Assembly: GCF_913775355.1 (NCBI RefSeq)
Contig: NZ_CAJYIU010000087.1
Coordinates: forward strand, 1 to 34,243
From: an uncultured Aureimonas sp.
GTDB taxonomy: Bacteria; Pseudomonadota; Alphaproteobacteria; Rhizobiales; Rhizobiaceae
Direction: 5' to 3'
Length of the DNA: 34,243 bases
In this document: in pieces, positions 2,920 through 5,763 of the stretch
Position numbering within the stretch: the first letter of the stretch is position 1
How the letters are laid out: the number at the start of each line of letters is the position of its first letter
Made by a program: the position numbers and the translations under genes
Notes under the pieces: generated by a model
Database searches by the model: none
What the model was told of the DNA's origin: nothing
The model's input: only the letters and a program-made list of their open reading frames with translations

Positions 2920-3912
2920 TTACTGGGCCGGTGCCGGCGCCGGAGCGGCATTCTCGGCCGGAGCGGGCGTCGCAGGTGCGGGCGCCGCCGGGGCCGGGGC
3001 TGCCGGCGCTGCGGGGGCCGGAGCCGCCGCGGGCGCAGCCGGTGCCGTGGCGGGAGGCGTCGAGGGCGCCGGGTTCTCCTGCGGGGCCTGCGTGCCGGGC
3101 TGCGAAGGCGCGGCTTGGCCGGGCTCGGTCGGCGGAACGGGCGCGCCGGCGGGTCGGTTCTCGGCGTTGGTGCCGGTGGCCGGAACCGTGCCGGACGCCG
3201 GTGCGGTCGGCGCGCCGCCGGTGGTCTGGTCGGTGGAGCCGGCGCCCTGGGGCTGCGTCACCGCGTCGTTCGGCAGAGCGTTGGCATTGGTCGTGGCGTT
3301 CGGCTGGGTCTCGGCGGGTGCTGCCGCCGCTTCGCCGCCGGCCGGCGCGCCGGCGTCCGGCGCGGGGGGCGCCGGCGGGTTGTCCGACAGCGTGCCGAGA
3401 TAGGCGAGGAGGTCGGCGCGCTCCTGATCCTTCGGGATGCCGGCGAAGCCCATCGCCGTGCCCTTGATGTACTGCTTGGGCCCATGCAGGAAGTGGTTCA
3501 GGTGATCCCAGTCCCAGACCACCGTCTTGCCCTGCGAGAACTCGGTAATGGCGGCCGAGTAGCTGAAGCCCTCGTGCGAGGCGATCGGACGGTTGACGAC
3601 GTCCCACAGATCGGGGCCGACCTTGTTGGGTCCGCCCTTTTCGCCGGAATGGCAGGCCTGGCAACGCTTGAAGATGGCGGCGCCCGCCTCGGCATTGGCG
3701 GTCTGCATCAGCTGGCCGACCGGCGTCACCTCGTTGGCGGCGGGTGCGGCCCCGCCACCACCGGCGGGGGCATCTGGCACGGCGATCGCGAAGCCGGGCT
3801 GTTCGGGCGCCTCGGCATGGAAGATGCCCTCGGCCAGAAGGCTGCCGCCGAACAGAACGAACACGGTGCCGAGCAGGGCACCGAAGATCTTGTTGGCCTC
3901 AAACGAATTCAT
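2920..3912 (-). CDS. Membrane-anchored c-type cytochrome with long Pro/Ala-rich C-terminal tail
   Basis: A 330-residue class I cytochrome c, probably an electron carrier tethered to the inner membrane facing the periplasm (CycM / cytochrome c-552 type). ATG 3912 is chosen because AGGGAG lies 12 bases upstream. Residues about 8-30 form an uncleaved hydrophobic anchor ([18 protein letters not shown]). The haem motif is C84-Q-A-C87-H88. KVGPDLW and M154 (KGTAMGF) are the usual class I core and likely sixth ligand. The cytochrome domain ends near residue 177. The last 153 residues are low complexity, dominated by Ala, Pro, Gly, Thr and Gln and ending in APxAP-type repeats. Family members are usually about 175-200 residues, so the tail nearly doubles the protein. 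It is transcribed divergently from kdsB-pheA, a neighbourhood I recall from other rhizobia. Confidence 0.9.
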
Positions 3913-4043
3913 GATAAAGGGCGGCTCCCTCTGCAGCCGGCGCAAGGGGCCGACGACACGCGCTTTCGATCGTCCACGGGCAGAGCGCGATCCGCCGGTT
4001 CCCGGCGACCTGGCTCGAGCCCGTCAATTGGAAGCGTTCTGAC

Positions 4044-4122: not shown

Positions 4123-5721
4123 ATGTCCACCCTGATCCTGATCCCGTCCCGGCTGGCCTCGACACGCCTTCCGATGAAGCCGCTGGCCGACATCGGCGGA
4201 CGTCCGATGATCGTGCGCGTCGCCGAGCGGGCGCGCGAGGCGGCGATCGGGCGCATCGTGGTGGCGACCGACGACGCCGCGATTCGCGATGCGGTCACGG
4301 CTGCGGGGTTCGAGGCGGTGATGACCGGCGCCCACCACCAGTCCGGCTCCGACCGTATCTTCGAGGCGCTGGAGATCATCGATCCCGCAGGCGAGATCGA
4401 CACGATCATCAACCTCCAGGGTGACCTGCCGACGATCGAGCCGGAGACGATCCGCGCCGTGCTGCGCCCCTTCGCCGATCCCGCCTGTGAGATCGCGACC
4501 GTCGCGGTCGAGATCGAGAACCCGGCCGACCGCATGGACCCCAGCGTCGTCAAGCTGATCGGCACGCCGGTCGCCGAGAGCCGGCTCAACGCGCTCTACT
4601 TCACGCGTGCGACCGCGCCGACGGGGGACGGGCCGCTCTATCACCATGTCGGCATCTACGCCTATCGCCGCGCGGCGCTCGCCCGCTTCGTGGCGCTCCA
4701 GCCCTCGCCGCTGGAGATGCGCGAGAAGCTCGAGCAGCTGCGTGCGCTCGAGGCCGGCATGCGGATCGACGCCGAGATCGTCGACGCGGCGCCGCTCGGC
4801 GTCGACATGCCCCACCAGCTGGAGGAGGCCCGGCGCTTCTACGAGCCGGCGACGCGCTCAAACCGCATCTCGTTCCAGGGCGAGCCGGGTGCCAACTCCG
4901 ACACCGCCTGCCGGACGATGTATCCCGGCCTCGAGCCGCTGCCGTGCCCGACCTTCGAGGACGCGCTGGCGGCCGTCACGCGCGGCGAGGCGGACCTTGC
5001 GATGATCCCGATCGAGAACACGATCGCCGGCCGCGTCGCCGACATCCACCACCTCCTGCCGGTGTCGGGCCTGCAGATCGTCGGCGAGTTCTTCCTGCCG
5101 ATCCGCTTCCAGCTGATGGCCAAGCCCGGCACGGGCCTTGGCGACATCCGCGAGGTGCACAGCCACATCCACGCGCTCGGCCAGTGCCGCGGCATTTTGC
5201 GGCGCAACGGCTGGAAGCCGGTCATTTCGGGCGACACGGCGGGCGCGGCGCGCATCATCTCGCAGATGGCCGAGCGCGACGTCGCGGCGCTCGCGCCCCG
5301 GCTCGCCGCCGAGCTCTACGGCCTCGACATCCTCGCCGAGAACGTCGAGGACGCCGAGCACAACACGACGCGTTTCGTGGTCCTGTCGCGGCCCGGTCGC
5401 GGCGAGGCGCTCTGGGCGCCGCGGTCCGGCGAGATGGTGGTCACCACCTTCGTCTTCGAGGTGCGAAACCTGCCGGCCGCGCTCTACAAGGCGCTCGGGG
5501 GCTTTGCCACCAACGGCATCAACATGACGAAGCTCGAGAGCTACCAGCTGGAGGGCAAATTCGTGGCGACGCAGTTCTTCGCCGATATCGAGGGGCATCC
5601 GAACGACCCCGGCGTCGCGCGCGCGCTCGACGAGTTGCGCTTCTTCTCCAAGCGCGTCTCGATCATGGGCGTCTATCCCGCGTCTCCCGACCGCCCTACG
5701 CACCCCGGCGCCGCGGAGTAG
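4123..5721 (+). CDS. kdsB-pheA: Fused KdsB-PheA: CMP-KDO synthetase joined to prephenate dehydratase
   Basis: One uninterrupted 532-residue frame. Residues 1-241 are 3-deoxy-manno-octulosonate cytidylyltransferase, which activates KDO with CTP for lipopolysaccharide: [20 protein letters not shown] at the N-terminus, INLQGDLP, and the C-terminal [12 protein letters not shown]. Residues 247-532 are monofunctional-type prephenate dehydratase, which makes phenylpyruvate for phenylalanine: [14 protein letters not shown], the catalytic TRF at 416-418 (HNTTRFVV), then an ACT domain with [20 protein letters not shown] for Phe feedback. Each half is about full family length (248 and about 285 residues) and only about five residues (PATRS) link them. 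No ATG, GTG or TTG lies in frame between codon 229, inside KdsB's conserved end, and the PheA core. Separate adjacent genes are usual in rhizobia. A true fusion or a sequence error that removed a stop and start would both explain this. Confidence 0.88.
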
Positions 5722-5733
5722 GGCGCCAACGAA

Positions 5734-5763
5734 AAAGGCCCCGCTAGAGCGGGGCCTTTTTCG
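5734..5763. terminator. Bidirectional rho-independent terminator between kdsB-pheA and the DUF1127 gene
   Basis: A GC stem GGCCCCGC / GCGGGGCC with a TAGA loop is flanked by AAAAA on the left and TTTTT on the right, so it can end transcription in both directions. It lies between two convergent gene ends (5721 and 5784). Confidence 0.93.

Follow-up and report, generated by a model that had tools for sequence, protein, structure and literature searches.

The window, as we call the whole 34,243-nucleotide stretch of Aureimonas DNA analysed here, carries on its forward strand an open reading frame of 532 codons that runs from an ATG at 4123 to a TAG ending at 5721 with no internal stop, and that joins kdsB (CMP-Kdo synthetase) to pheA (prephenate dehydratase). 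The KdsB domain occupies residues 1-240 (4123-4842), with its final helix at residues 230-239, as delimited by NF003948, PF02348 and an AlphaFold model. It is followed by a linker of about seven residues (241-247; 4843-4863) with a proline at 242, placed by comparison of junctions and by the same model, and then by prephenate dehydratase with its ACT domain, residues 248-532 (4864-5718), recognised by NF008866 and PF00800. Upstream of ATG 4123 the frame stays open to 2878; the choice of this start agrees with where the KdsB models begin, and each of the 21 distinct fused genes compared carries an ATG at this point. Directly 3' of the stop lies a terminator-like hairpin on the same strand (5737-5761; 8-base arms and a 4-base loop, then five T), which was read from the sequence by eye. 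The divergent upstream neighbour on the minus strand (2920-3945) encodes a CxxCH motif, by which it is classed as cytochrome c-like. Its product ends in a Pro/Ala-rich tail of about 150 residues; among 15 relatives this tail measures 87-158 residues in the eight Aureimonas read fully, 14-63 in four other rhizobia and 234 in Fulvimarina.

Both halves of the fused protein match the profile models of complete enzymes. The KdsB equivalog model NF003948 aligns to residues 1-242 (profile positions 4-245 of 248) with 380.4 bits against a cut-off of 281, and a second KdsB model, TIGR00466, scores 198.5 bits against 155.2. The PheA equivalog model NF008866 aligns to residues 245-525 (profile positions 4-280 of 283) with 461.3 bits against a cut-off of 359. 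Pfam places CTP_transf_3 at residues 5-215 and PDT at 249-424, and PF00800 scores 189.9 bits on the PheA half against a cut-off of 25.2. The original prediction, that a complete KdsB and a complete PheA share one frame, thus holds, as there is no stop between them and both equivalog models exceed their cut-offs. The frame would presumably be translated in full, and the protein would have both enzyme activities.

Among known systems, the E. coli P-protein (chorismate mutase-prephenate dehydratase, NF007910) is likewise bifunctional and has prephenate dehydratase and ACT domains, but its partner performs the preceding step of the same pathway, whereas the partner in Aureimonas is KdsB. NF007910 matches the fused protein at residues 242-521 only (profile positions 99-378), with 126.7 bits against a cut-off of 577, and the profile search found no N-terminal chorismate mutase domain, the N-terminal half being KdsB. 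The text of one study describes the chorismate mutase-prephenate dehydratase fusion as common in bacteria, along with a triple fusion that includes prephenate dehydrogenase (PMC11237513). Fusions such as cyclohexadienyl dehydratase/chorismate mutase are tabulated in another, in the main text of which the terms 'kdsB' and 'octulosonate' do not occur (PMC4921024), and in our searches of the open-access literature we found no earlier description of a KdsB-PheA fusion. The solved structures nearest to each half are unfused. For the PheA half, the closest is the Brucella prephenate dehydratase (PDB 6vh5; E=2.6e-130, 68% identity), and the second-nearest by sequence is GqqA (PDB 7alz/7am0; E=1.8e-89), whose molecule is named prephenate dehydratase and whose entry is titled quorum-quenching acylase; acylase activity is not implied for the Aureimonas PheA half. 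The KdsB half resembles the CMP-Kdo synthetase structures 3k8d, 1vh1 and 3oam in fold and sequence.

The fusion is a property of the genus. The source assembly (4.2 Mb in 337 contigs, 98.7% complete) carries the fused gene on contig C87, with Aureimonas sp. Leaf324 (97%) as the nearest named relative, followed by A. phyllosphaerae (96%). In all 21 Aureimonas genomes the same frame is present as an uninterrupted in-frame fusion, with a single match covering nearly all 532 residues, and members farthest from the window's sequence still show 66-68% identity; three of the 21 matches carried a stop flag, and each flag proved to be the terminal stop when the junctions were read. Named isolates with the fusion include A. 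phyllosphaerae, A. ureilytica, A. altamirensis, A. frigidaquae and A. fodinaquatilis. In every one of the 21 the fused gene is the sole PF00800 member, and the PF00800 search found no second pheA elsewhere in any of these genomes. This search detected the family in 14 of 14 control genomes, and its result concerns the PF00800 family, the periplasmic cyclohexadienyl dehydratase belonging to another. One genus member (G156) has a second kdsB-like gene (L130) that is 56% identical.

At the junction, 20 of 21 distinct fused proteins have a spacing of 25 residues between the KdsB GVD motif and the PheA FQGE motif, and the remaining one has 26. The linker sequence is variable save for proline 242, which is found in 19 of the 21; a proline at the equivalent position occurs in 4 of 159 free-standing KdsB tails (drawn from 161 separate loci, two of which lack the motif used). 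By these comparisons, the junction behaves as evolving coding sequence with near-constant spacing. The original prediction had weighed a real gene fusion against an assembly error that erased a stop/start junction, and had proposed a comparison with close relatives; despite the 337-contig assembly such an error, or one of base-calling, in this single genome is practically untenable, since the relatives are fused too (all 21 genus genomes, and 11 named Aureimonas loci, L031-L041, many of which are the same genomes) and their junctions show both synonymous and amino-acid differences, with a whole-codon difference in one. The presence of the fusion in every genus genome examined indicates that it is inherited; it is a genuine, old, genus-wide gene fusion with an unusual choice of partner.

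Outside the genus the two genes are separate. Other Rhizobiaceae and Alphaproteobacteria have the same two genes but encode each protein separately, kdsB having its own stop and pheA its own start, and none of the 197 outside loci that hold both genes (191 and 6, in two sets; some genomes are present twice under different identifiers) is fused. The four secondary matches in genus genomes (L130-L133), each lacking one of the genes, were left out. In the 191 adjacent loci, kdsB and pheA lie in the same order on the same strand, with 6-141 nt from the kdsB stop to the PheA core, which confirms the earlier statement that they are neighbours in other rhizobia. Among the best ~150 matches listed in each search, no full-length stop-free fusion from outside the genus was found in sets of 151 and 394 family genomes (which include 2 and 8 genus genomes, the window's own among them), nor was any found in 386 class genomes or 150 phylum genomes; these sets overlap, and a very divergent fusion ranking below the best ~150 matches could escape. 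Stop flags in these searches also count terminal stops, and full-length flagged matches were therefore read individually: all 30 full-length stop-bearing matches from family and class genomes that had no prior locus proved to be separate genes. One record, titled Bacillus subtilis SK6B4 (L094), holds a kdsB-pheA locus whose spacing and identity resemble those of Pseudochrobactrum L091 and L095, so its title is probably wrong.

Some of these separate pairs overlap. In 11 of the 191 loci the pheA start lies inside the kdsB stop as a 4-nt ATGA overlap, and this count understates the frequency of ATGA, because nearly all loci were chosen for matches to kdsB and pheA in a single frame, an arrangement that rules out a 4-nt overlap; all 11 come from 20 loci chosen by eye, and in 17 of these 20 the frames of the two genes differ. 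ATGA is described as being, on average, by far the commonest arrangement of such prokaryotic gene pairs (PMC10666635). On a 77-row PheA tree, 12 separate loci fall into one group with the fused sequences (support 93); nine of these 12 have the ATGA overlap (L098, L188 and L191 are without it), while two further overlap loci, L190 and L198, are placed away from the fused clade. In one putative Fulvimarina group (g23), two of three loci have the overlap and the third has a 3-nt gap. Measured from the final conserved Leu codon in KdsB, PheA FQGE lies 62-122 nt away in 10 ATGA-overlap loci, always 2 mod 3; of seven fused loci, six have 54 nt here and the other 57 nt, always 0 mod 3.

These distances suggest how the fusion may have arisen. 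We consider it very probable that the protein is one polypeptide with two enzymes, that it originated once near the base of Aureimonas from an overlapping pair by a short deletion, and that it has since been tolerated. The starting state would have been an adjacent kdsB-pheA pair overlapping by ATGA, a state that the ATGA-overlap relatives plausibly display today. A short net deletion of 3n+2 nt would then have removed the stop and start and brought pheA into the kdsB frame, and a net loss of 8 nt would suffice from the shortest overlap locus (62 nt to 54 nt); the deletion is deduced from the Leu-to-FQGE spacing. This event would have occurred once, at or near the base of the genus, after which the only PF00800 prephenate dehydratase of the cell would be made as a tail on KdsB.

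Trees of each half bear on whether the fusion arose once. Before they were built, sequences that did not differ in their first 200 residues of KdsB and 150 of PheA were reduced to one, leaving 171 (21 of them fused), and 77 or 50 rows were taken from these. The 21 fused KdsB halves form one clade (99/98 with 50 rows; 96 in the 77-row tree). For the PheA half, 19 fused sequences form one clade (100/96), and the other two, from genomes G157 and G166 (L129 and L128), group with the unfused G102 and G577 (98/91), with which they share the place, and not the length, of a loop insert. A PheA tree constrained to hold all 21 fused sequences together is rejected (p-AU 0.019), and long branches are involved. 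These PheA results would be expected if fusion had occurred twice, in most Aureimonas and separately in the lineage of G157 and G166, an account that we regard as unlikely: the KdsB halves form a single clade, the G157 and G166 linkers have the same length and the same proline, and a tree of rpoB places both genomes among 13 from the genus that group together (83/96). That tree (28 rows, 19 of the 21 genus genomes, the fragmentary matches L257 and L258 left out) is weakly resolved, with low support, and fails to unite the genus in a single clade. The PheA tree is explained equally well if an already fused gene had its PheA half replaced, or by long-branch attraction. The trees thus suggest either that the PheA half of G157 and G166 was replaced at a later time or that a second fusion took place, and the single KdsB clade, together with the common linker length and proline, makes one fusion followed by replacement the simplest reading. 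In the rpoB tree the main copy from the source genome sits on a longer terminal branch than its close relatives do, and a second partial rpoB match lies on another contig of that assembly (G000:C150:103-1119); contamination or a repeated contig end is possible.

We also considered that one DNA frame yields two products, with PheA made also or mainly from internal initiation or by cleavage of the linker. A short and variable linker would allow this, some relatives have overlapping kdsB and pheA genes at the junction, and an ATG, GTG or TTG occurs between GVD and FQGE in the window's gene, as ATG229, a candidate internal start, and in 12 more of the distinct fused genes. These 13 starts are inconsistent in position, however, with 12 at codons 227-233, inside the last motif and helix of KdsB, and one at codon 241, and in the remaining 8 of the 21 no such codon is present. 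As had been claimed, the window's gene has no further ATG, GTG or TTG from codon 229 to the PheA core, the next being ATG 266, within the core. Past FQGE, the first ATG falls at codons 261-272 in 20 of the 21 and a GTG at 286 serves as the first candidate in the other, and initiation at any of these would delete the first PheA strand and the GANSD motif. The proposed former Shine-Dalgarno site, GGAGGAGG, lies at 4821-4828 on the forward strand, one position beyond the 4820-4827 first given for it, and consists of Leu-Glu-Glu codons in the last helix of KdsB. It is exact in just 4 of 21 distinct fused genes, the same codons reading, for example, GGAAGAAG, CGAGGAGG or TGAGGATG in others; we therefore reject it as a relic, and as a conserved ribosome-binding site. 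Given the scattered internal starts, a separate PheA product appears improbable, and a single polypeptide remains our preferred reading.

Conservation extends over both enzymes. Residues invariant in 17 fused proteins include, in the KdsB half, R10, S13, T14, R15, K19, N97, Q99, D101, G226, V227 and D228, which fall in what we take to be active-site segments (the N-terminal R..STR..K loop, NLQGD and GVD). In the PheA half they include T416, R417 and F418 and the stretch N467-Q475, which we take to be the TRF motif and the phenylalanine site of the ACT domain; the ACT region is retained across the fused proteins. Pooled dN/dS values from seven close sequences are 0.19 for KdsB residues 1-225, 0.09 for its last helix (226-240), 0.36 for the linker (241-248) and 0.07 for PheA residues 249-425, making the linker the least constrained of the segments tested and pointing to purifying selection on both halves. 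AlphaFold, run on 17 fused sequences, gave five models with mean pLDDT from 49.9 to 78.9; in the best, which we used (mean pLDDT 78.9, pTM 0.67), the KdsB helix spans residues 230-239, residues 240-247 are without regular structure and the first PheA strand begins at 248. The KdsB half superposes on solved KdsB structures with TM values (normalised by target) of up to 0.88. The PheA half superposes on 6vh5 with a TM of 0.67 and an rmsd above 7, so that domain placement within this half is unreliable. Each half presumably folds and works independently.

PheA is an oligomeric enzyme. KdsB dimers have in turn been reported for the E. coli, H. influenzae and A. aeolicus enzymes (PMC3149649). Joining a KdsB dimer to a PheA oligomer may build larger assemblies of the fused protein, and coordinated dosage of KdsB and PheA would follow if no separate PheA is made.

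We know of no metabolic link between CMP-Kdo and phenylalanine. It is nevertheless conceivable, if improbable, that the fusion ties the supply of Kdo and lipopolysaccharide to phenylalanine, through an effect of ACT-domain binding on KdsB or through a selected 1:1 dosage. Its retention in all 21 genus genomes, the near-constant linker length (25 residues in 20 of 21), the proline shared by 19 of 21 and the retained ACT region speak for such a role; the lack of a known link and the linker dN/dS of 0.36, the weakest constraint tested, argue against it. More doubtful still is a specific device in which phenylalanine binding at the ACT domain, or enforced 1:1 assembly of KdsB-PheA oligomers, would couple the supply of CMP-Kdo for the outer membrane to aromatic amino acid status. 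Our default reading is that the fusion was tolerated and went on to be fixed: joining two neighbouring genes that were already coupled would have been accepted and then hard to reverse, and its persistence would owe more to this than to a metabolic link.

If annotation pipelines name the fused protein by one of its halves, the genus may appear to lack kdsB or pheA. Gene fusions serve as evidence that two proteins work together. Partners without a known link, retained across a whole genus, make Aureimonas a clean case in which to ask whether a fixed fusion signifies function or a tolerated joining, and hence a test of the rule by which function is read from fusion.
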